Below, piece after piece: positions 1,030 through 20,637 of a DNA stretch of 41,259 nucleotides (positions are counted from its first letter, which is position 1; each line of letters begins with the position of its first letter). Origin of the DNA: an uncultured Clostridia bacterium (lineage in GTDB: Bacteria; Bacillota; Clostridia; Oscillospirales; CAG-272). The position numbers were made by a program, and so were the translations under genes. The notes under the pieces were generated by a model that saw nothing but the letters and a program-made list of their open reading frames with translations, was not told where the DNA came from and made no database searches. The stretch spans positions 1 to 41,259 of the forward strand of contig CAMKAU010000010.1 in NCBI GenBank assembly GCA_946410595.1, read 5' to 3'.

Positions 1030-1057
1030 CGAATCAGAAGCAGGGCGTTTTTGGGGG

Positions 1058-1134
1058 TGTGTAAAGATGCCACCCGGGAGAGCGCCGCGTTCGCAACGCG
1101 GAGGTCATGGGTTCGAATCCCACCAGGTCCACCA
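1058..1134 (+). tRNA. tRNA-Ala(CGC)-like sequence with degenerate 5' half (pseudo-tRNA or tRNA-like RNA)
   Basis: Anticodon arm CCGCG-TTCGCAA-CGCGG, T-arm ATGGG-TTCGAAT-CCCAC (one mismatch) and encoded CCA present; 5' acceptor strand and 5' D-stem strand do not pair properly. Confidence 0.5.
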
Positions 1135-1312: not shown

Positions 1313-1317
1313 CAACT

Positions 1318-1534
1318 AAATCCGTCCTTGCGGACGGGTGAAATCCGCTTCGCGGATGAAATCGCTCCCGCGAACCCCCGAAAATGAGCGAGCTCATTTT
1401 CGGGGAACCCCGGCGCGATGAAATCCGGCTCCGCCGGGTTTGAGGACGGATTTGATTTCATCGTGAGCGAAGCGAACGATTTCATCCGAGGACAATGTCC
1501 GAGGATTTCACCGTGCCGTAAGGCGCGATTTCAT
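1318..1534. repeat. Array of short hairpins separated by GATGAAATC / GATTTCATC motifs with an orientation switch
   Basis: TGAAATC at 1339, 1357, 1419; GATTTCA at 1454, 1478, 1504, 1527; hairpin CCCCGAAAATGAGC-GA-GCTCATTTTCGGGG at 1376-1405. Confidence 0.8.
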
Positions 1535-7956: not shown

Positions 7957-9540
7957 TTATTTTCCGCTGTCTCCGTAGTTGGCGAGAACGCGGGCGGAAG
8001 GATCGTTCACGTTGCAGCCCTCCCAGGACCGGTTGGGCATCCAGAAATCCGTTACCATCTCCGACTGGCCGGGGTAATACCGCTCGAAGATCTCGCGGTA
8101 AAGCAGCGATTCTTTGGTAAACGGCGTTGCGTGGGCGTAGCGAAGACGCTTTTCTTCAAACTCTTCGTCGGTGTAGCGGCTCTCGGCGTACGCCTTGAGA
8201 TCGTCCACCATCGAATGACCGACCGCGTCGGAAAACGCCGCCTTCTCGCGCCAGAGGATCCCGTCCGGCAGGTAGCCGAGCCCCTCGAACGCCCGGCGGA
8301 GCAGGTATTTGCCCTTGCCGTAGCGGTTGAGCTTTATCTCCGGGTCAAGACTCATTACGTAGGAAACGAAGTCCAGATCCCCGAAGGGCACGCGCGCCTC
8401 GAGCGAGTTGACCGAAATGCAGCGGTCGGCGCGGAGCACGTCGTACATATGCAGCTCGCGCACGCGCTTTTCCGCTTCCTTCTGGAACGCTTCGGCGGAG
8501 GGGGCGAAGTCGGTATATTTGTATCCGAACAGCTCGTCGGAGATCTCGCCGGTCAGCAGCACGCGGATATCGGTCGTCTCACGGATCGCCTTGCAGACGA
8601 GGTACATCCCCATCGACGCGCGGACCGTCGTGATGTCGTAGGTGCCGAGCAGACGCACCACCGTTTCCAGCGAGGAGATCACCTCCTCCGGCGTCATATA
8701 CACCTCGGTATGCTCCGCGCCGATGAAATCGGCGACCTGCCGGGCGTATTTGAGGTCGATGGCGTCCCCGCTCATGCCGATCGCAAAGGTGCGGATCGGC
8801 TTTTCGCTCTTTTTCGCGGCGATCGCGCAGACAAGCGAGGAGTCGAGCCCGCCGGAGAGGAGGAAGCCCACCTTTGCGTCGGAGACCAGCCGTTTTTTTA
8901 CACCTGCGATCAACTTTTCGCGGATCTTCCGGCAGGCCGTGTCCAGCCCGTCGCGGCAGACGCGGTCCGCCTTTGCCGTATCGCGATAGCAAACGAACGC
9001 GCCGCCTTTGTAATAGTGTCCCGGCGGGAACGGCATGATCTTTTTAGCGAGGCCGACGAGGTTTTTCGGCTCGCTTGCGAACAGGATGACCCCCTTTTCG
9101 TCGTACCCGTAATAGAGCGGGCGGATCCCGATGGGGTCGCGCGCGGCGATAAACTCGTCTGTTCTGCCGTCGTAGATCACGCAGGCGAACTCCGCGTCGA
9201 GCCGGGCGAACAGCTCTGTCCCGTACTCGAAATACATCGGCAGCAGGATCTCGCAGTCGCTGTCGCTCGAGAAGGAATACCCCTTCCCTTTCAGGCGCTC
9301 CCGCTCCCGCTCGAACCCGTAGAGCTCCCCGTTACAAACGGCATAGCAGCCGTTCAGAGAGAACGGCTGCATCCCGGAAGGCGTGAGCCCCATGATCGAA
9401 AGGCGGTGAAAGGCGAGGAGCCCCTCGCCGGTCCGCACGACCCGGCTGTCGTCCGGGCCGCGCGATTTGGTCTCGGCAAACCCTATTTCAAACGCGGCGC
9501 GGTCGGAAACGGCGCCGCAATATCCGAAAATCGAACACAT
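7957..9540 (-). CDS. asnB: Asparagine synthetase (glutamine-hydrolysing)
   Basis: Start set at MCSIFGYCG; FLLSGGLDSSLV, SLEARVPFGDLDFV. Confidence 0.93.
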   Translation of the reverse strand: MCSIFGYCGAVSDRAAFEIGFAETKSRGPDDSRVVRTGEGLLAFHRLSIMGLTPSGMQPFSLNGCYAVCNGELYGFERERERLKGKGYSFSSDSDCEILLPMYFEYGTELFARLDAEFACVIYDGRTDEFIAARDPIGIRPLYYGYDEKGVILFASEPKNLVGLAKKIMPFPPGHYYKGGAFVCYRDTAKADRVCRDGLDTACRKIREKLIAGVKKRLVSDAKVGFLLSGGLDSSLVCAIAAKKSEKPIRTFAIGMSGDAIDLKYARQVADFIGAEHTEVYMTPEEVISSLETVVRLLGTYDITTVRASMGMYLVCKAIRETTDIRVLLTGEISDELFGYKYTDFAPSAEAFQKEAEKRVRELHMYDVLRADRCISVNSLEARVPFGDLDFVSYVMSLDPEIKLNRYGKGKYLLRRAFEGLGYLPDGILWREKAAFSDAVGHSMVDDLKAYAESRYTDEEFEEKRLRYAHATPFTKESLLYREIFERYYPGQSEMVTDFWMPNRSWEGCNVNDPSARVLANYGDSGK

Positions 9541-9550
9541 CGTCTTGTTC

Positions 9551-11314
9551 CTATTCCACGTCCTGCAGGGCGTCGTACCCTTCCTCCCCGGTGCGGACCT
9601 TGACCACGTTCTCCACGTCGTAAACAAAGATCTTCCCGTCGCCGATATGGCCGGTGTAGAGGACCTTTTTCGCCGTTTCGATGACGTGCCGGACCGGGAC
9701 CTTGCTTACCACGATGTCCACCTGGATCTTCGGGAGCAGATTGACCTCCACCGCGACACCGCGGTAGTATTCCGGCTGTCCCTTCTGCGCGCCGCAGCCG
9801 AGCACGTGGGAGACGGTCATCCCCGTGATCCCGATCTCCATCATGGCGTTTTTCAGCGCCTCAAAGCGCTGTTCCTTGCAGATGATCTCGATCTTCGTGA
9901 ACTTCGGCCGGCCTTCCTCGAACGCCGGAACTTTTTTCACGGGGATCGCCTCCGCGACCGGCGTGTCGCCGCTGACCGCGACGGCGTTTTCATATCCGTA
10001 ATCCAGACTTTCCACCGCCGGGACGAAATCGGCGTAGGCGCTCGGGAGACCGTGCTCGGTCTTATCGAGCCCCTTGATCTCCTCCTCGGTCGATACGCGA
10101 AGCCCGACCGTCTTTTTGAGAACAAAGAAGGTCACGATCATCATCACGGCCGTCCAGGCAAGGATCGCCGCGATCCCCAGAAGCTGAACGCCGAGCAGCC
10201 GGAAGCTGCCGGTATAGAAAAGACCGCTCTCCCCCGCCGGAGCGGAGGGGTTGGCAAGCAGACCGACGGCGACCGTGCCCCACACGCCGTTGGCGAGATG
10301 CACGCCCACCGCGCCGACCGGGTCGTCGATATGCAGTTTGAGATCCAGACATTCCACGACGAACACGACGAGAAACCCGGAAACGGCGCCGACGACCGCC
10401 GAACCGAGGGCGTCCAGCGCGTCGCACCCCGCGGTGATCCCGACCAGGCCCGCGAGGGAGGCGTTGAGGCACATGGAAACGTCCGGCTTCCCGTTTTTGA
10501 TCCAGGTAAAGATCATCGTCGTGCAGGTGGCGACCGCCGGCGCGACCGTCGTCGTAACGAAGATCGAGGCGAGGGAGCTGCCGTCCCACGCGGCGGCGCC
10601 GTTGAAGCCGTACCAGCCGAACCAGAGGATAAAGCAGCCGAGCGCGCCGAGCGTGACGGAGTGCCCCGGGATCGCGTTGACCTTTTTGACCTTCCCGGCG
10701 CCGTCTTTCGCGTACTTGCCGAGGCGGGGGCCGACCATGATCGCGCCGATCAGCGCGGTGATCCCGCCGACCGAGTGGATGGCGGCGGAGCCGGCAAAGT
10801 CGTGGAAGCCGAGTCTGACAAGCCACCCCGCTTCATTCCAGACCCAGCCCGCCTCGATCGGATACACGAACAGCGAGATCACGCCGGAATAGATACAGTA
10901 GGAAAGGAACTTCGTGCGCTCCGCCATCGCGCCGGAAACGATCGTGGCGGCGGTCGCGCAGAAGACGAGATTGAAAACGAACGACGGCGCGCCGCCGCTC
11001 TCAAGAAAACCGCCGAAGTCGGTCAGGATCTTCAGATTCGGGACGCCGACGACGCCGAGGACGTAATCCTCCGCCATCATCAGCGAAAAGCCGAGGAGAA
11101 CGAACACCACCGTCCCGATGCAGAAATCCATCAGGTTTTTCATGATGATATTGCCGGCGTTTTTGGCGCGGGTAAAGCCGGTTTCCACCATCGCAAAGCC
11201 GGCCTGCATAAAGAAGACGAGCGCCGCTCCGATCAGAAACCAGACGCCGAACACTTCCTTTTGCGCCGCTTCTGCTGCCAGTTTTGTTATTTCTTCCGCC
11301 AACACGGCGATCAC
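9551..11314 (-). CDS. amt: Ammonium transporter fused to C-terminal P-II (GlnB/GlnK-type) domain
   Basis: 587 aa; Amt motifs (GAALVFFMQAGFAMVETGF, HDFAGSAAIHSVGG) then P-II domain TKIEIICKEQRFEALKNAMMEIGITGMTVSHVLGCG. Confidence 0.93.
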   Translation of the reverse strand: MIAVLAEEITKLAAEAAQKEVFGVWFLIGAALVFFMQAGFAMVETGFTRAKNAGNIIMKNLMDFCIGTVVFVLLGFSLMMAEDYVLGVVGVPNLKILTDFGGFLESGGAPSFVFNLVFCATAATIVSGAMAERTKFLSYCIYSGVISLFVYPIEAGWVWNEAGWLVRLGFHDFAGSAAIHSVGGITALIGAIMVGPRLGKYAKDGAGKVKKVNAIPGHSVTLGALGCFILWFGWYGFNGAAAWDGSSLASIFVTTTVAPAVATCTTMIFTWIKNGKPDVSMCLNASLAGLVGITAGCDALDALGSAVVGAVSGFLVVFVVECLDLKLHIDDPVGAVGVHLANGVWGTVAVGLLANPSAPAGESGLFYTGSFRLLGVQLLGIAAILAWTAVMMIVTFFVLKKTVGLRVSTEEEIKGLDKTEHGLPSAYADFVPAVESLDYGYENAVAVSGDTPVAEAIPVKKVPAFEEGRPKFTKIEIICKEQRFEALKNAMMEIGITGMTVSHVLGCGAQKGQPEYYRGVAVEVNLLPKIQVDIVVSKVPVRHVIETAKKVLYTGHIGDGKIFVYDVENVVKVRTGEEGYDALQDVE

Positions 11315-11323
11315 CTCACTTTT

Positions 11324-13420
11324 TTATCTGACGCTGAAGAGAATATCCCCGTAGGTCGGGAACGGCCAGTAATCTTTTGCCGTGACCGTTTCCGCCTCGT
11401 CGCAGGCCACGCGCAGCTCGCACATAGCGGGCAGGACCTTATCGCGGATCATCGCGGACTCGGAGACGATATCCTCCGCGCCGCGCAGCTCGATCTCCGC
11501 CTTCTGCAGTTCGTCCACCCGGACGAAGATCCGGTCGGTCAGCTCGGACAGCTTTTTCACCAGTCCCGTTTCGTAGGCGCAGGGGACGGACGGGTCGATC
11601 GCCTTTTTGGCCGCGGCGTTGCGCGCCAGATCCGCCGCAAACCGTTCCACGGCGGGCGCGATCAGGGTCTTGGCCATTTCCGCCATCGTGCTCGCCTCGA
11701 TGGTGACCGTTTTGCAGTAGTTTTCCAGCATGATCTCGCAGCGGGAGCGCAGCTCGTCCACGGTAAACACCTTGTGCGCGGTGAGCATATCCACGTTCTT
11801 TTTATCCAGCAGATGCGGCATGCAGTCGGCGGTGGTGCGGTAGTTGAGAAGCCCGCGCACCTCGGTCGCCTCTTTGATCCACGCGTCGTCGTAGCCGTTG
11901 CCGTTGAAGATGATCCGCTTGTGGTCCCGGATCGTCTTTTTGATCATCTCATGCAGCGCCGTTTCAAAGTCAGACGCGCCCTCCAGCCGGTCGGCGTACA
12001 CCTTCAGGCTCTCCGCCACGGCGGCGTTGAGCATAATGTTCGCGCAGGCGATGGAGTTCGAGGAGCCGAGCATCCGGAACTCGAACTTGTTGCCGGTAAA
12101 GGCGAACGGCGAGGTGCGGTTGCGGTCGGTCGTGTCGCGGTTGAACTTCGGCAGGACATCCACGCCGAGCTTCATCTGCGTCTTTTGCGCGCCGTGATAC
12201 GGCTTGTCGTTCTCGATCGCCTCGAGCACCGCGTTCAGCTCGTCGCCGAGGAAGATCGAGATCACCGCCGGCGGCGCCTCGTTTGCGCCGAGGCGGTGGT
12301 CGTTGCCCGCCGTGGCGACGGAGATACGCAGAAGATCCTGATAGTCGTCCACCGCCTTGATCACGGCGCAGAGGAAGAGCAGGAACTGGGCGTTTTCGTA
12401 GGGCGTATCGCCGGGAGAGAGCAGGTTCTGCCCCTCGTCGGTCGAGATCGACCAGTTGTTGTGCTTGCCGGAGCCGTTGACGCCGGCAAAGGGCTTTTCG
12501 TGGAGCAGACAGACCAGACCGTGTCTCGCGGCGACCTTTTGCATGATCTCCATCGTCAGCTGGTTCTGGTCGGTCGCCAGGTTGGTGGTCGTATAGATCG
12601 GCGCCAGCTCGTGCTGGGCGGGCGCGACCTCGTTGTGCTCGGTCTTCGCCATGATCCCGAGCTTCCAGAGCTCCTCGTTGAGCTCCTCCATAAAGGCGGC
12701 GACCTTCGGCTTGATCGCGCCGAAGTAGTGGTCGTCCATCTCCTGACCCTTCGGCGGCTTCGAGCCGAAGAGCGTACGGCCGCAGAAGCGCAGGTCGGGA
12801 CGGGCGTCGTACATTTCTTTGGTAATGAGGAAATACTCCTGCTCCGGTCCGACGGAGGAAACGACCCGTTTGACCGTATCGCTGCCGAAGAGACGGAGAA
12901 CGCGCAGCGCCTGCCGGTTCAGCGCTTCCATCGAGCGCAGCAGGGGCGTCTTTTTATCGAGCGCGTGCCCGCCGTAGGAGCAGAACGCGGTGGGGATGCA
13001 CAGGGTTTTGCCTTTGATGAACGCGTAGGACGTCGGATCCCACGCCGTATATCCTCTCGCCTCGAAGGTGGCGCGCAGGCCGCCGGAGGGGAAGGAGGAG
13101 GCGTCCGGCTCGCCCTTGATCAGCTCCTTGCCGGAAAACTCCATGATCACGCCGCCGTCCGGCGAGGGGGCGATAAAGCTGTCGTGCTTTTCCGCCGTGA
13201 TCCCGGTCAGCGGCTGGAACCAGTGGGTAAAATGGGTGGCGCCCTTCGAGACCGCCCAGTCCCGCATCGCGGAAGCGACCGCGTCCGCAACGCCCGGATC
13301 CAGACCGGCCCCCTCGTCGATCGTGTGCCGCAAAGAGGCGTAAACCTTGGCTGAAAGAGTCGCTTTCATCACTCTGTCGTCGAACACCATGCTCCCGAAC
13401 GTTTCCGTTACCGTTTTCAT
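11324..13420 (-). CDS. glnN: Type III glutamine synthetase
   Basis: 698 aa; [29 protein letters not shown]. Confidence 0.95.
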
Positions 13421-13523
13421 AACCGATCTCCTTTTCTTTCTTCTCGGGGCGGGCGCCGCCGGTAAATGACGGAAAAGACGGCGCCGCCTTCATTTTTTGA
13501 ACTGTTTTGAAATGCCGGAAAAC

Positions 13524-13560
13524 AAAAAATGCGCCTCTGATCCCGCAGGATCAAAGACGC
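13524..13560 (-). terminator. Intrinsic terminator (attenuator) in the glnN leader
   Basis: Minus strand GCGTCTTTGATCC-TGC-GGGATCAGAGGCGC-ATTTTTT, about 13-bp stem. Confidence 0.85.
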
Positions 13561-13572
13561 CTTTGCCTTTAA
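13551..13572 (-). promoter_or_regulatory. ANTAR-type hexaloop hairpin overlapping the glnN leader terminator
   Basis: Minus strand (TT)AAAGGC-[AAAGGC]-GTCTTT(GA); loop has A1 and G4. Confidence 0.65.
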
Positions 13573-13580
13573 CGCTCCCC

Positions 13581-13609
13581 ATTATAGACCCGCCTTTCCG
13601 GTTTGTCAA
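13581..13609 (-). promoter_or_regulatory. Consensus promoter for glnN-amt-asnB
   Basis: Minus strand TTGACA, 17 nt, TATAAT. Confidence 0.85.
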
Positions 13610-13673: not shown

Positions 13674-13702
13674 TTGACAGAGGCGTTTCCCCGCTGTATA
13701 CT
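13674..13702 (+). promoter_or_regulatory. Consensus promoter for the split glutamate synthase operon
   Basis: TTGACA, 17 nt, TATACT. Confidence 0.85.
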
Positions 13703-13709
13703 GTCGTCA

Positions 13710-13727
13710 ATGAGCAAAGGCGTTCAT
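13710..13727 (+). promoter_or_regulatory. ANTAR-type hexaloop hairpin overlapping the plus-strand leader terminator
   Basis: ATGAGC-[AAAGGC]-GTTCAT; loop identical to the glnN leader loop. Confidence 0.65.
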
Positions 13728-13777
13728 GCGGGCCGCGGAGAAATCCGCGGCCCGCGTGAGCGCCTTTTGCGTTTTTT
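13714..13777 (+). terminator. Intrinsic terminator (attenuator) in the glutamate synthase leader
   Basis: GCAAAGGCGTTCATGCGGGCCGCGGA-GAAA-TCCGCGGCCCGCGTGAGCGCCTTTTGC-GTTTTTT. Confidence 0.88.
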
Positions 13778-13797
13778 CCGAGAAAGGGGAAACCGAT

Positions 13798-14892
13798 ATG
13801 CAAAAGGAAGGAAAGGTCAGGATCCCGTCCGGCTGCGCGATCGCGGCGATCATCTCCCGGGAAGGGCGGCGCATGACGGGCGAGAAGATCATCGAAGCGA
13901 TGAAGCCGATGCGCGAACGCTCCAACGGTCTCGGCGGCGGCTTTGCCGGGTACGGGATCTATCCGGAATACAAGGATTTTTACGCGCTGCATCTCTTTTT
14001 TGACTGCCGCGATACCCGCAAACGCTGCGAGGCGTTCCTCAAAGACTCGTTTGAGATCGTAAAAGGAGAGCGGATCCCGACGCGGAAAATGCCCGAAATC
14101 ACCGACGAGCCGTCCATCTGGCGGTATTTCGTCGCGCCGCTGCGCTCGGTCCTCTCCGATCTGCAGGTGGACGAAAAGGAGTTCGTCGCCCGCACGGTGA
14201 TGAAGATCAATACCGCCATGGAGGGCGCCTACGTCTTTTCCAGCGGGAAAAACATGGGCACGTTCAAGGCGGTCGGCTTTCCCGAGGACGTCGGCCGCTT
14301 CTACCGGCTGGACGAATACGAGGGGTACAGCTGGACGGCGCACGGCCGCTACCCGACCAACACCCCCGGCTGGTGGGGCGGGGCTCATCCCTTTACCCTG
14401 CTCGACTACTCGGTCGTCCACAACGGCGAGATCTCCTCTTACGACGCCAACCGCCGTTTTATCGAGATGTTCGGATACAAATGCACGCTGCAGACCGATA
14501 CCGAGGTGATCACCTACATCCTCGACTATCTGCTCCGCCGGCAGGGTCTGACGCTGACCGAAGCGGCAAACGTGATCGCCGCGCCGTTCTGGAGTACGAT
14601 CGAACGGATGCCGGACGGCTACGAAAAGGAAAAGCTGCGGTACCTCCGCACCGTCTTCCCGAGCTTGCTCGTGACCGGGCCGTTTTCCATCGTGCTCGGC
14701 TTTGACGGCGGGCTGATGGCGCTGAACGACCGGCTGAAGCTCCGGTCGATGGTGGTCGCCGAAAAGGAGGACCGCGTGCTGATCGCCAGCGAGGAGGCGG
14801 CGATCCGCGCCATGGAGCCGGACGCCGAGAATATCTGGGCCCCGTCCGGCGGGGAGCCGGTCGTCGTAACGGTAAAGGAGGGAGCGTTCTGA
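13798..14892 (+). CDS. Class II glutamine amidotransferase subunit of split glutamate synthase (GltB N-domain/GlxB-like)
   Basis: Start at MQKEGKVRIPSGCAIAAIISREG; HGRYPTNTPGWWGGAHPFTLLDYSVVHNGEISSY. Confidence 0.88.
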   Translation: MQKEGKVRIPSGCAIAAIISREGRRMTGEKIIEAMKPMRERSNGLGGGFAGYGIYPEYKDFYALHLFFDCRDTRKRCEAFLKDSFEIVKGERIPTRKMPEITDEPSIWRYFVAPLRSVLSDLQVDEKEFVARTVMKINTAMEGAYVFSSGKNMGTFKAVGFPEDVGRFYRLDEYEGYSWTAHGRYPTNTPGWWGGAHPFTLLDYSVVHNGEISSYDANRRFIEMFGYKCTLQTDTEVITYILDYLLRRQGLTLTEAANVIAAPFWSTIERMPDGYEKEKLRYLRTVFPSLLVTGPFSIVLGFDGGLMALNDRLKLRSMVVAEKEDRVLIASEEAAIRAMEPDAENIWAPSGGEPVVVTVKEGAF

Positions 14893-16397
14893 TGGGAGTG
14901 GAATATCTCTATCCCGAGTTTGAAGTGGTCCGCAACCCGGACCGATGCATCGCCTGCCGCGTGTGCGAGAGGCAATGCGCAAACGAAGTGCACGCGTACA
15001 GCGCCGAGCGCGGCGTGATGATAAGCGACGAAACGAAATGCGTCGACTGCCAGCGCTGCGTCTCGCTCTGCCCGACGCGAGCGCTGAAGATCGTGAAAAG
15101 CGACTGCGCCCTGCGCGAAAACGCGAACTGGAAAAACGAAACGGTCAAAGAGATCTATAAGCAGGCGAACAGCGGCGGGGTCCTGCTCTCCTCCATGGGA
15201 AACCCGAAGCCGCTGCCGGTCTACTGGGACAAGATCCTCATCAACGCGTCCCAGGTCACAAACCCGCCGATCGACCCGCTCCGGGAGCCGATGGAAACGA
15301 AGGTCTTCCTCGGCAAAAAGCCGGACGCCGTCGTCCGCGGCGAAGACGGCGGGATCGACTGCCGGCTGGAGCCGCAGATCGAGCTCTCCATGCCCGTGAT
15401 GTTCTCGGCGATGAGCTACGGCTCGATCAGTTATAACGCGCACGCCTCGCTCGCCCGCGCCGCGACGGAGCTCGGCATTCTCTACAACACCGGCGAGGGC
15501 GGGCTGCACGAGGACTTCTACCGGTACGGAAAAAACACGATCGTGCAGGTCGCCTCCGGGCGCTTCGGCGTGCACGAGGACTATCTGAACGCCGGCGCCG
15601 CCATCGAGATCAAGATGGGTCAGGGCGCAAAGCCGGGTATCGGCGGGCACCTCCCCGGCGCAAAGATCGTGGGCGACGTTTCCCGTACCCGGATGATCCC
15701 CGAGGGCTCGGACGCGATCTCCCCCGCCCCGCATCACGACATCTATTCGATCGAGGATCTGCGGCAGCTCGTCTTTTCCTTAAAGGAAGCGACGGAGTAC
15801 AAAAAACCGGTGATCGTCAAGGTCGCCGCCGTGCATAATATCGCCGCCATCGCCAGCGGGATCGCCAGAAGCGGCGCCGACGTGATCGCCATCGACGGCT
15901 TCCGCGGCGGGACCGGCGCCGCGCCGACGAGGATCCGCGACAACGTGGGCATCCCGATCGAGCTGGCGCTGGCCGCCGTGGATCAGCGCCTGCGCGACGA
16001 GGGGATCCGCAACAACGTTTCTCTGGTGGTCGGCGGCTCGATCCGTTCCGCCGCCGACGCGGTGAAGGCGATCGCGCTCGGCGCGGACGCCTGCTACGTC
16101 GCCACGGCGGCGCTGCTGGCGCTCGGCTGCCATCTCTGCCGCACCTGCCAGACCGGCCGCTGCAACTGGGGGATCGCCACACAGCGCCCGGATCTGGTCA
16201 AACGGCTGAACCCGGAGATCGGCTCGCAGCGGCTTATCAATCTGCTGACCGCCTGGCGGCACGAGATCATGGAGATCATGGGCGGTATGGGGATCAACTC
16301 CGTCGAGGCGCTGCGCGGCAACCGCCTGATGCTGCGGGGCGTCGGACTGAACGAAAAAGAGCTGGAGATCCTCGGGATCTCCCACGCGGGGGAATGA
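14892..16397 (+). CDS. Ferredoxin-FMN-binding glutamate synthase central-domain protein
   Basis: 501 aa; CIACRVCERQC, CVDCQRCVSLCP, then FMN-domain motifs MSYGSISYNAH, GGTGAAPTRIRDN. Confidence 0.93.
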   Translation: MGVEYLYPEFEVVRNPDRCIACRVCERQCANEVHAYSAERGVMISDETKCVDCQRCVSLCPTRALKIVKSDCALRENANWKNETVKEIYKQANSGGVLLSSMGNPKPLPVYWDKILINASQVTNPPIDPLREPMETKVFLGKKPDAVVRGEDGGIDCRLEPQIELSMPVMFSAMSYGSISYNAHASLARAATELGILYNTGEGGLHEDFYRYGKNTIVQVASGRFGVHEDYLNAGAAIEIKMGQGAKPGIGGHLPGAKIVGDVSRTRMIPEGSDAISPAPHHDIYSIEDLRQLVFSLKEATEYKKPVIVKVAAVHNIAAIASGIARSGADVIAIDGFRGGTGAAPTRIRDNVGIPIELALAAVDQRLRDEGIRNNVSLVVGGSIRSAADAVKAIALGADACYVATAALLALGCHLCRTCQTGRCNWGIATQRPDLVKRLNPEIGSQRLINLLTAWRHEIMEIMGGMGINSVEALRGNRLMLRGVGLNEKELEILGISHAGE

Positions 16398-16401
16398 TGA
16401 G

Positions 16402-16839
16402 ATGAAACGCGTCTACGTGAAAGAAGAATGGTGCCTCGGCTGTCACCTGTGCGAATACAACTGCGCCTTCGCGAACTCCAACCTGGAAGCCATGACCTCC
16501 CTCAAGGGGAAAAAGATCTTCCCGCGGATCCACGTGGAAGGCGGCGAGCGGATCACCTTTGCCGTTTCCTGCCGCCACTGCCGCGATCCGCTCTGCGTGA
16601 AAAGCTGTATCGCCGGCGCCATCTCCAAAAAAGAGGGCGTGGTCGTGATCGACCGGCAGAAGTGCGTGGGGTGTCTGACCTGCGTGCTGGTCTGCCCCTA
16701 CGGGGCGCTCGCGCCCGGCGAGGACGGCGCCATGCAGAAATGCGAGCTCTGCCTCGGCAACGCCTGCGGCGCGCCGGCGTGCGTCACGGGCTGTCCGAAC
16801 GGCGCCATCGTCTATGAAGAAAGGAGCGAGTCCGAATGA
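16402..16839 (+). CDS. 4Fe-4S ferredoxin-type electron transfer protein
   Basis: 145 aa with multiple CxxCxxC clusters. Confidence 0.9.
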   Translation: MKRVYVKEEWCLGCHLCEYNCAFANSNLEAMTSLKGKKIFPRIHVEGGERITFAVSCRHCRDPLCVKSCIAGAISKKEGVVVIDRQKCVGCLTCVLVCPYGALAPGEDGAMQKCELCLGNACGAPACVTGCPNGAIVYEERSESE

Positions 16840-18068
16840 AACGCTACGTCATCATCGGCAACGGCACGGCGGCGGTCGGCTGTATCGAGGGGATCCGCTC
16901 GCTCGACGGCGAGGGCGGGATCACCGTGATCTCGGAGGAGGCCCGTCCCGTTTACAGCCGTCCGCTGATCTCCTACTACCTGGAAGGTAAGACCGATCTC
17001 AAACGGATGCAGTACCGCCCCGAGGGGTTCTATAAAGAAAACGGCTGCCGCGTGCTGTACGGACGGCGCGCCGTCTCCCTCGATCCGAAGGAAAAGACCG
17101 TTACCCTCGACGACGGCTCCTCCCTCCCGTACGACGCACTCTGCGTTGCCGCCGGCTCGCGGCCGTTCGTGCCGCCGTTCGAGGGACTGGAAACGGTCGA
17201 GCGGAAGTTCGGCTTTCTGACGCTTGACGACGCGCTGGCGCTGGAAGGCGCCCTGACGCCGGACGCGCGCGTCCTGATCGTCGGCGCCGGTCTGATCGGG
17301 CTGAAGTGCGCCGAGGGGATCCTTGCGCGCGTCGGCAGCGTGACGGTGTGCGACCTCGCCGACCGCGTACTCTCCAGCATCCTCGACGGGGACTCTGCCG
17401 CGCCGGTGCAGGCGCATCTGGAAAAGCGCGGGATCCGCTTTCTGCTCGGCGATACCGCCGTACGCTTTGAAGAAAACCGCGCGTATATGAAAAACGGCGG
17501 CGCGGTGGACTTTGATCTTCTCGTGCTCGCCGTCGGCGTGAAGGCGAACGCGGAGCTTGTAAAAGACGCCGGCGGCAGGGTAAACCGCGGCGTCGTGATC
17601 AACGAAAAAGGGGAAACGAGCCTGCCGGACGTTTACGCCGCGGGCGACTGCGCGGAGGGGTACGACGCTTCCCTCGGCGCAAACCGCGTCCTCGCGATCC
17701 TCCCGAACGCCTATCTGCAGGGACGGACTGCCGGCGTCAATATGGCGGGCGGCAGCGCGGCGCTTCGGAACGCGATCCCGATGAACGCGATCGGCTTTTT
17801 CGGTCTTTCCGTGATGTCCGCCGGCGTCTGCGACGGCGAAATGACAACGGAAAGGGAGGGCGGCGCGATCAAGCGTTTCTTTGTCAAAGACGGGCTACTG
17901 AAGGGCTTTATCCTCGTCGGCGCGCCGGAACGGGCGGGGATCTACACCTCGCTGATCCGGGAGCGGATCCCGCTTGACACCGTCGACTTCGAGCTGACGA
18001 AAAAAACCGCCACCAGTTTGATCTTTTCACCGGAAATCCGTAGACAAAAGTTCGGAGGCGTAGTATAA
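16836..18068 (+). CDS. FAD-dependent pyridine nucleotide-disulfide oxidoreductase
   Basis: 410 aa; IIGNGTAAVGCIEGIR, VLIVGAGLIGLKCAEG, DVYAAGDCAEG. Confidence 0.92.
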   Translation: MKRYVIIGNGTAAVGCIEGIRSLDGEGGITVISEEARPVYSRPLISYYLEGKTDLKRMQYRPEGFYKENGCRVLYGRRAVSLDPKEKTVTLDDGSSLPYDALCVAAGSRPFVPPFEGLETVERKFGFLTLDDALALEGALTPDARVLIVGAGLIGLKCAEGILARVGSVTVCDLADRVLSSILDGDSAAPVQAHLEKRGIRFLLGDTAVRFEENRAYMKNGGAVDFDLLVLAVGVKANAELVKDAGGRVNRGVVINEKGETSLPDVYAAGDCAEGYDASLGANRVLAILPNAYLQGRTAGVNMAGGSAALRNAIPMNAIGFFGLSVMSAGVCDGEMTTEREGGAIKRFFVKDGLLKGFILVGAPERAGIYTSLIRERIPLDTVDFELTKKTATSLIFSPEIRRQKFGGVV

Positions 18069-18069
18069 T

Positions 18070-18789
18070 ATGGTAATCAACGCAAAAGGGCTCGGGTATC
18101 GCGCCGTCAACGACGCGCTCCGCCGGGCGGAGGGGGACAGCGAGGTGACCGGCTGTCTCGGCCAGCGGTTTCTCTGCGCCGGGATGTCCGGCGGCTCCGT
18201 TACGATCGGGGGGATCCCCGGCAACGCGCTCGGCGCCTATCTCAACGGCGCGGAGATCACCGTCCGGGGCAACGCCCAGGACGCCGTCGGCGATACGATG
18301 AACAACGGCAAAATCGTCGTCCACGGCAACGTCGGGGACGCCGCGGGATACGCGATGCGCGGCGGCGCGATCTACGTGAAGGGAAACGCCGGATACCGCG
18401 CCGGGATCCACATGAAGGAATACCGGGAAAAGGTGCCGGTGATGGTGATCGGCGGTACGGTGGGCAGCTTCCTCGGCGAGTACCAGGCGGGCGGCGTGAT
18501 CGCGGTGCTCGGGCTCGGGCGGGGCGGCGGACGGATCGTCGGCAACTTCCCCTGTACGGGGATGCACGGCGGCAGGATGATCCTGCGCTCCGACGGGACG
18601 GACGTTCTCTTTCCCGCGCAGGTCACGGCGCGGCCCGCGACGGAAGCGGACCGGGAGGAGATTTTCCGGTACGTAACCGAATACGCGGCGCTCTTCGGCG
18701 CGGACGCGGCCGGGATCATGGACGCGCCCTTCACGGTCGTGACGCCGGACAGCAAAAATCCCTACAAGCAGCTTTACACGGCCAATTGA
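18070..18789 (+). CDS. GXGXG-domain subunit of split glutamate synthase (GltB C-domain/GlxC-like)
   Basis: 239 aa; repeated glycine-rich turns (GNALGAYLNGAEITVRGNAQDAVGDTMNNGKIVVHGNVGDAAGYAMRGG). Confidence 0.9.
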   Translation: MVINAKGLGYRAVNDALRRAEGDSEVTGCLGQRFLCAGMSGGSVTIGGIPGNALGAYLNGAEITVRGNAQDAVGDTMNNGKIVVHGNVGDAAGYAMRGGAIYVKGNAGYRAGIHMKEYREKVPVMVIGGTVGSFLGEYQAGGVIAVLGLGRGGGRIVGNFPCTGMHGGRMILRSDGTDVLFPAQVTARPATEADREEIFRYVTEYAALFGADAAGIMDAPFTVVTPDSKNPYKQLYTAN

Positions 18790-18805: not shown

Positions 18806-20017
18806 ATGAAATATTCAAAAGACGAGGTCCTTCAGTACGTGGCGGAGGAAGGCGTAAAGTTTATCCGTCTCGCGTTCTGCGACGTGTTCGGCAAACAGAA
18901 GAATATCTCGATCATGCCGGACGAGCTGCCGCGCGCCTTTGAAGACGGGATCGCGTTCGACGCTTCCGCCGTCGCCGGGTTCGGCGGAGACGAGGCCCGC
19001 TCCGACCTTTTCCTCCGTCCCGAGCCGGAAACGCTTACCTGGCTCCCGTGGCGGCCGGAGCAGGGAAAGGTCGTGCGGATGTTCTGCCGGATCGCCTACC
19101 CGGACGGCAGACCGTTTGAATGCGATACGAGAAGTCTTTTGAAAAAAGCGGAAGAAGACGCGGCGGCGGCGGGGCTGACCTTTTACTTCGGGGCGGAAGA
19201 GGAGTTCTACCTCTTTGAGCTCGACGAACGCGGCCTCCCGACCAAAACGCCCTACGACCGCGCCGGCTATATGGATATCGCGCCGGAGGACAAGGGGGAA
19301 AACGTCCGCCGCGAGATCTGCCTGACGCTCGAGAAGATGGGGATTTTCCCGGAAAGCTCCCACCACGAGGAGGGCCCCGGGCAGAACGAGATCGACTTCC
19401 GCTATACGACGGCGCTGACCGCCGCCGACAACGTGATGACCTTCCGGACCGTCGTGAAAACGACGGCGCAGCGAAACGGCCTGTTTGCCGACTTTTCGCC
19501 GAAGCCGCTGGAAAACGCGCCGGGAAACGGCTTTCACCTCAACTGCTCCGTCCGGCCCGATCCCTCCTCCGAGCAGCTTTTCCGGGTGATCGCGGGGGTG
19601 CTGGACAAGGCCGTTCCCTGCACGCTCTTCTTTAACCCGACCGCCGCGTCCTACGCCCGGCTCGGGGAGATGAAGGCGCCGCGCTACGTTTCCTTTTCGG
19701 CGGAGAACCGCTCCCAGCTGATCCGCCTCCCCGCGGCGAAAGGCGAGTACCGGCGGGCGGAGCTCCGCTCCCCTGACCCGACCGCCAATCCCTATCTCGC
19801 CATGACGCTGATGATCCGGGCGGGGCTGCGCGGGATCGAAAGGAAGCTCGCCCTGCCGGAGCCGTTTGACCTCAACCTCTACCGGGCGGGCGAGGACGTT
19901 CTCTCTCGCCTGCAAAAGCTGCCCGCCGATCTGAGCGAAGCGCGCGCGGCGGCTCTGGCCGACGGGTTTATCCGGGAAAGCGTCCCGGCCGAGATCCTGC
20001 AAATCTACGCGCAATAA
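18806..20017 (+). CDS. Short glutamine synthetase family protein (GS-I-like)
   Basis: 403 aa; FGAEEEFYLFE, SSHHEEGPGQNEIDF, NGFHLNCSV, ENRSQLIRLP, RRAELRSPDPTANPYL. Confidence 0.88.
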   Translation: MKYSKDEVLQYVAEEGVKFIRLAFCDVFGKQKNISIMPDELPRAFEDGIAFDASAVAGFGGDEARSDLFLRPEPETLTWLPWRPEQGKVVRMFCRIAYPDGRPFECDTRSLLKKAEEDAAAAGLTFYFGAEEEFYLFELDERGLPTKTPYDRAGYMDIAPEDKGENVRREICLTLEKMGIFPESSHHEEGPGQNEIDFRYTTALTAADNVMTFRTVVKTTAQRNGLFADFSPKPLENAPGNGFHLNCSVRPDPSSEQLFRVIAGVLDKAVPCTLFFNPTAASYARLGEMKAPRYVSFSAENRSQLIRLPAAKGEYRRAELRSPDPTANPYLAMTLMIRAGLRGIERKLALPEPFDLNLYRAGEDVLSRLQKLPADLSEARAAALADGFIRESVPAEILQIYAQ

Positions 20018-20052: not shown

Positions 20053-20637
20053 TTGAGTCTGGAAGAAAAATCTTACAGCGTGCTCGTCGTGTCCGCGGCG
20101 GAGCCGTTCAATCAGGCGCTGACCGAGCTGTTCCCCGCCGCCTCCTTCTCCCCGATCCGTACGGTAGGCGCCGTCAGCGCCGCCAAACGCGCCGTATCGG
20201 AGCGGGATTACGACTTTGTGATCGTCAATTCCCCGCTCCCCGACGATCCCGGCGTCCGCTTTGCCGTCGACTCGGTCTCCTCCGGCGGGACGATCGTTCT
20301 CTTTCTCGCCAAGGCCGAGCATTACCCCGACGCGTACGAACGGCTCGTCGGGCACGGGGTGTTTATGATGCAGAAGCCGATCGCGCGGTCCCTCTTCCAG
20401 ACGGCGGCCGGCTGGCTGATCAGCGCGCGGGAGCGGATCCGGAAAACGGAAACGAGGACCCTCTCCATCGAGGAAAAGATGAACGAGATCCGCCTTGTCA
20501 ACCGGGCGAAGTGGCTACTCATCAGCGAGCTGAAAATGACCGAGCCGGATGCGCACCGCTTTGTGGAAAAGCAGGCGATGGACCGCTCCGTTCCGAAGCG
20601 GCAGGTCGCGGAGGAGATCATTCAGACCTACGGCTGA
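20053..20637 (+). CDS. ANTAR-domain response-regulator-like RNA-binding antiterminator
   Basis: 194 aa; receiver-like N-terminus, C-terminal ANTAR helices MNEIRLVNRAKWLLISELKMTEPDAHRFVEKQAMDRSVPKRQVAEEII. Confidence 0.88.
   Translation: MSLEEKSYSVLVVSAAEPFNQALTELFPAASFSPIRTVGAVSAAKRAVSERDYDFVIVNSPLPDDPGVRFAVDSVSSGGTIVLFLAKAEHYPDAYERLVGHGVFMMQKPIARSLFQTAAGWLISARERIRKTETRTLSIEEKMNEIRLVNRAKWLLISELKMTEPDAHRFVEKQAMDRSVPKRQVAEEIIQTYG

Follow-up and report, generated by a model that had tools for sequence, protein, structure and literature searches.

Can one RNA hexaloop, standing almost at the first nucleotide of a transcript, be enough for an ANTAR protein to prevent transcription termination? 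Antitermination by EutV needs both of two hairpins, the linker of 5-12 nt between them being critical (PMC3369931), and in Enterococcus faecalis there is no antitermination with a single hexaloop alone (PMC8934654, PMC3369931); the EutV:RNA structure 6WW6 has the ANTAR dimer gripping one hexaloop at a time, and two questions were left open: what makes a pair of hexaloops necessary, and whether there are functional sites with just one (PMC8934654). They return with two divergent leaders in the 41,259-nucleotide stretch of DNA from a gut Clostridia bacterium analysed here (the window). These leaders very probably act as a transcription-attenuation switch in both directions; the ANTAR protein that would operate it is the product of the last gene in one of the two operons concerned, and its binding, the sign of the regulation and the signal are what we infer. 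The features on the glnN side, all on the minus strand, are as follows.

13581..13609, minus strand: glnN promoter TTGACA-N17-TATAAT, sigma-70-type, 12/12 consensus positions (-35 at 13609-13604, -10 at 13586-13581)
13550..13573, minus strand: candidate glnN antiterminator hexaloop GTTAAAGGC[AAAGGC]GTCTTTGAT, A1 at 13564 and G4 at 13561, with a covarying stem
13523..13560, minus strand: glnN intrinsic terminator GCGTCTTTGATCC-TGCG-GGATCAGAGGCGC plus U-tract, overlapping the loop end and the 3' arm of the hexaloop
13474..13491, minus strand: degenerate second glnN module GAAGGC[GGCGCC]GTCTTT, its loop beginning with G1 (A1 lost), without a U-tract
11324..13420, minus strand: glnN, type III glutamine synthetase (Pfam GSIII_N, 6e-79), first gene of glnN-amt(PII)-asnB
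9551..11314, minus strand: ammonium transporter with C-terminal PII domain (Pfam Ammonium_transp and P-II)
7957..9627, minus strand: asnB, asparagine synthase, glutamine-hydrolysing (Pfam Asn_synthase, 1e-71)

The first-pass annotation had read the start of this leader as a consensus promoter, followed after about 15 nt by the hairpin AAAGGC-[AAAGGC]-GUCUUU with A1 and G4 in its loop, the 3' half of which overlaps a terminator, and each of these elements is found where it was placed. The hairpin lengthens to 9 pairs (13573-13550), with the 5' arm (GTT)AAAGGC at 13573-13565, the loop AAAGGC at 13564-13559 and the 3' arm GTCTTT(GAT) at 13558-13550; its loop begins 16 nt past the -10, so that the stem would begin at about +1. 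The terminator has a 13-pair stem (13560-13531) and then AUUUUUUG, with the U-tract at 13530-13523. Because the terminator stem starts at loop position 5, the two structures are mutually exclusive, as had also been claimed: the 5' part of the leader, folded alone, gives the hexaloop (-7.8 kcal/mol), and the entire leader gives the terminator (-25 kcal/mol, z -4.1, equalled by 0 of 200 shuffles). Downstream of this leader, the ammonium transporter and the PII signalling protein form a single 587-aa fusion.

A second module, absent from the first-pass annotation, lies about 100 bp away, faces the opposite way and heads the glutamate synthase-glnA-ANTAR operon; we refer to leaders of this kind as gatA-type.

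13674..13702, plus strand: divergent promoter TTGACA-N17-TATACT
13710..13727, plus strand: divergent-leader hexaloop ATGAGC[AAAGGC]GTTCAT, loop at 13716-13721, A1 at 13716 and G4 at 13719
13719..13782, plus strand: divergent-leader terminator with U-rich tail, overlapping the 3' arm of the hexaloop
13798..14892, plus strand: glutamate synthase amidotransferase subunit (Pfam GATase_2), start at 13798 favoured
14892..18789, plus strand: glutamate synthase FMN domain, ferredoxin-like, NAD(P)H oxidoreductase-like and GXGXG subunit genes (Pfam Glu_synthase, GXGXG)
18806..20017, plus strand: glnA, glutamine synthetase of 403 aa (Pfam Gln-synt_C, 7e-83)
20053..20637, plus strand: ANTAR protein with a pseudo-receiver domain (phospho-Asp replaced by N59), the sole ANTAR protein of the genome

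The two leaders of the window differ in the sequence of their stems and are identical in loop and architecture. The start codon of the longest open reading frame for the amidotransferase subunit, ATG 13726, sits within the terminator hairpin, and relatives mostly align only from residue 17-27 of this longer frame onward; relatives and ribosome-binding site together favour ATG 13798 as the probable start. The ferredoxin-like and NAD(P)H oxidoreductase-like genes are named by sequence and order only, this order being fixed in relatives.

How exceptional is this arrangement? A scan of both strands of the 41 kb for A1/G4 hexaloops with a stem of at least 5 pairs and a 3' arm that enters a terminator returned exactly two matches, both directly 3' of consensus promoters, and the same scan of ten Markov-shuffled windows returned one match in total (0.1 per window). 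Genome-wide, the pattern GCAANGRCGTY has 44 matches, among which only the two leaders combine promoter, long stem and terminator. The genome holds two GSIII_N matches, and since no further module occurs among the 44 pattern matches, its second GSIII gene is without one. An Rfam search of the leader region gave no family at the gathering threshold, and its sub-threshold matches were at chance level; elsewhere in the window, Rfam recognises a Gut-1 RNA at 1313-1429 (plus strand, 54.7 bits) and a tRNA at 1055-1131 (plus strand).

How would such a switch work? Each transcript would start with a hairpin of 6 bp and a 6-nt loop (A1, A2, G4), the 3' arm of which doubles as the start of the terminator. 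If no ANTAR protein were active, the terminator, by far the more stable structure, would form, and transcription would stop before glnN-amt-asnB and glutamate synthase-glnA-ANTAR alike; when nitrogen is short, we infer, the ANTAR protein would grip the hexaloop as it emerges from RNA polymerase, hold its 3' arm and thereby permit readthrough. As the ANTAR gene is itself part of one regulated operon, the switch is probably self-reinforcing.

The candidate for this role is the protein encoded at 20053-20637. Its ANTAR domain scores 2e-14, most of the protein can be aligned with Rv1626, and the ANTAR profile PF03861 has a single match in the 2 Mb genome, inside the regulated operon; NCBIfam holds no model for it. 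The position of the Rv1626 phospho-Asp is occupied by Asn59 in 103 of 104 homologues, so that the phospho-acceptor of a response regulator of the EutV/Rv1626 type is missing, and Ser14, near the usual site of acidic residues, is likewise present in 103/104. Judged by its sequence, the protein has a pseudo-receiver at its N-terminus, like AmiR. A kinase is therefore an unlikely input, and control probably comes from a protein partner or a ligand, not from a histidine kinase; glutamine or 2-oxoglutarate, acting via GlnA or PII, would be our guesses for the signal. When the RNA contacts of EutV are mapped by hand from a phmmer alignment, K149, E160 and M172 are kept as K153, E164 and M176, Y164 corresponds to H168 as in AmiR, K143 and K147 correspond to R147 and R151, and R142 and R168 are replaced by I146 and E172, two differences that weigh against the proposed switch. 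K153, E164, H168 and M176 are each conserved in practically all (~100%) family members, and the positions that contact G4 are largely kept.

Is a single hexaloop really all that these leaders offer? The answer comes from the relatives, of which those with names are metagenome-assembled genomes (MAGs) of rumen and gut Clostridia. In 40 relative loci, the order glnN <- -> GOGAT ... glnA-ANTAR is largely kept and, in most of them, the promoter-hexaloop-terminator module stands on both sides. In 148/148 modules A1 lies 12-16 nt past the -10, and in all but one of these (147/148) 13-16 nt past it. Transcription usually starts 6-8 nt past the -10. With the loop 13-16 nt past the same element, the hairpin would therefore begin at about +1, and there is no space for the P1 hairpin on which EutV depends. 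The first-pass annotation had made its reading depend on a start no further downstream than 13551, and this fixed phase between promoter and loop argues for a start just upstream of the hairpin.

It is nevertheless conceivable that the ANTAR protein acts here only together with a second hexaloop supplied from elsewhere, be it a downstream tandem module, the divergent transcript or another RNA held by the same dimer. The precedent of EutV, with its two hairpins 5-12 nt apart (PMC3369931, PMC8934654), speaks for such an arrangement, and so does the second hexaloop present in 47 of 73 glnN-type leaders, typically 61-73 nt on. The gatA-type leaders, however, have a second downstream hexaloop (stem of at least 5 pairs) no more often than chance (2/75 versus 4.3 in shuffled sequences), and an upstream hexaloop that could serve as P1 in 0/75. 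The tandem glnN copies were considered as P1 and P2 and rejected, given this spacing and the first terminator that lies between them; where both are intact, as in many relatives, they are two complete attenuators in series. In the window, the second copy lacks both A1 and the U-tract, and this simultaneous loss would fit relaxed constraint on a dead attenuator. The canonical dual hexaloop, P1 and P2 joined by a linker of 5-12 nt, is thus not what is found, one hexaloop per terminator appears to be sufficient here, and we regard the need for a second one as unlikely.

A different doubt concerns the ANTAR protein itself. Might the promoter be constitutive and the terminator an ANTAR-independent attenuator or insulator, with the hexaloop as a mere by-product of the terminator's 5' arm? 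The terminator is indeed far stabler than the hexaloop, and loop positions 5-6 are accounted for by terminator pairing. Against this stands, to begin with, the distribution of the module, which tracks the ANTAR gene. That gene was detected in 111 of 297 family genomes, and the exact promoter plus hexaloop pattern occurs in 67 of these 111 as opposed to 2 of the 186 ANTAR-negative ones (Fisher p 7e-34, a value overstated by the relatedness of the family genomes); the reversed pattern, used as a control, gave 0 matches in the family. The 44 ANTAR-positive genomes (44/111) without the exact pattern weigh against the link, although the pattern is strict and misses some true leaders; the two module-bearing genomes without a detected ANTAR gene are incomplete MAGs in which a further search for ANTAR also gave none. 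The presence of glnN was considered as the cause of this co-occurrence and rejected: GSIII is near-ubiquitous (277/297 family genomes), and the module is therefore linked with ANTAR and not with glnN. As a separate observation, ANTAR-positive family genomes often have two glnN genes and ANTAR-negative ones usually one, as if a nitrogen module had been added.

The hairpin itself carries the marks of a conserved RNA. In a promoter-anchored scan that imposed no requirement on the loop, limited the position of the hairpin and asked for a stem of at least 5 pairs, 6-nt loops were the commonest (107 of 149 promoters); loops of 8 nt (101 promoters) and 10 nt (72) were also frequent, as expected when loop-closing bases can stay unpaired. 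Of 116 promoter-anchored loops, 104 have A1, 104 have A2 and 104 have G4, and position 3 is free, giving the loop A-A-N-G. Covariation of the stem, named in the first-pass annotation as a test, is borne out among 57 distinct hairpins: both sides change in 6 of 8 pairs, and the score of 0.554 (shuffled mean 0.273) was reached by 0 of 500 shuffles and fell to 0.08-0.20 in sliding-partner controls. Much of this signal reflects the difference between glnN-type and gatA-type hairpins, so that the independent events are fewer than the cell counts, and smaller compensatory changes occur within each type as well. The middle arm is, in most leaders, complementary both to the 5' arm and to the 3' arm of the terminator, with matched changes, which is what alternative structures require.

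These features bear directly on a by-product hexaloop. A1, A2 and G4 lie outside the glnN terminator stem of the window, yet they are conserved, position 3 being the one that varies, and the 5' arm of the hexaloop covaries; an attenuator that works without ANTAR is accordingly very improbable. Least credible of all is an operator in the DNA, bound by a repressor or activator, just 3' of the promoter. The classic operator position is indeed occupied by an inverted repeat whose distance from the -10 is fixed, but the second stem pair is G-U in 57/57 hairpins, which fits RNA and would leave a DNA palindrome mismatched, the conserved loop is non-palindromic, and a terminator overlaps the hexaloop in nearly all leaders, with a U-rich tail in 147/148. 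Of the marks expected of a leader under ANTAR antitermination, those visible in sequence are all present: an A1/G4 hexaloop, its overlap with a terminator, a covarying stem and an ANTAR gene in the same genome. The central claim of the first-pass annotation, that a nitrogen operon is under ANTAR-controlled antitermination, is thus supported as the probable reading by the covariation, the co-occurrence and a genuine ANTAR protein. Besides the divergent module, that annotation had overlooked the departure from the canonical dual-hexaloop target and the pseudo-receiver nature of the N-terminal domain.

Which genes would such leaders control? Of 147 modules, 145 stand upstream of GOGAT (68), glnN (53), GDH (8), amt (4), glnA (3), purC (3), purA (3), CTP synthase (pyrG; 2) or the ANTAR gene (1), a count biased by the many loci that were fetched via the ANTAR gene; one additional module precedes a purF-like gene, assigned by reading. 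Among loci found by the pattern alone, 36 of 38 modules stand upstream of GOGAT, glnN, GDH, purC or amt, and one such pattern-found module precedes an ATP synthase a-subunit-like gene, which may be chance or a real outlier. With modules upstream of pyrG, purA, purC and gdhA in relatives, the presumed regulon reaches nucleotide synthesis. Class-wide, the combination of promoter and hexaloop is present in 25 of 392 genomes, from 22 genera (control 0).

Taken more broadly, it seems reasonably likely that these leaders represent widespread ANTAR antiterminators of gut Clostridia, with one hexaloop at the 5' end, no recruitment hairpin and a kinase-independent pseudo-receiver, which control a glutamine-centred regulon (GS, GOGAT, GDH, Amt-PII, purA, purC, pyrG) and the regulator's own operon. 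If so, they point to a way in which nitrogen assimilation may be controlled in many uncultured Clostridia of the rumen and gut, and genomes are easily searched for such regulons by means of the conserved promoter-hexaloop motif. The leaders are also plentiful and short, and as natural candidates for which a single hexaloop seems enough they make the question posed in PMC8934654 directly testable.

How do these leaders compare with the systems already described? Having just one hexaloop for each terminator, at about +1, would set them apart from the ANTAR RNAs known so far. On the side of the regulator, AmiR of Pseudomonas is likewise an ANTAR protein with a pseudo-receiver and with His at the position that in EutV is stacked on G4; unlike with AmiR, no AmiC-like partner gene is seen beside the ANTAR gene here. 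NitR of Clostridium saccharobutylicum is encoded next to glnA. With EutV and the eut operons of E. faecalis (Ramesh 2012, PMC3369931; PMC8934654), the leaders share the A1/G4 hexaloop, the 3' arm overlapping an intrinsic terminator, a protein with receiver-like and ANTAR domains and several leaders per regulon; they differ in having one hexaloop per terminator, at about +1, in place of P1 and P2, a receiver without the phospho-Asp, and nitrogen assimilation rather than ethanolamine as the pathway served. ANTAR leaders found by covariance, among them one for glutamate synthase in Desulfotomaculum reducens and 13 elements in D. acetoxidans (PMC3369931), likewise place nitrogen genes of Firmicutes (P-II, ammonium transporters, glutamate and glutamine synthases) under ANTAR attenuation. 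The motif used in that search was a dual hairpin, which a lone hexaloop would not have fitted, and the present set extends beyond those leaders to the glnN, GDH, purA, purC and pyrG leaders of gut Clostridia.
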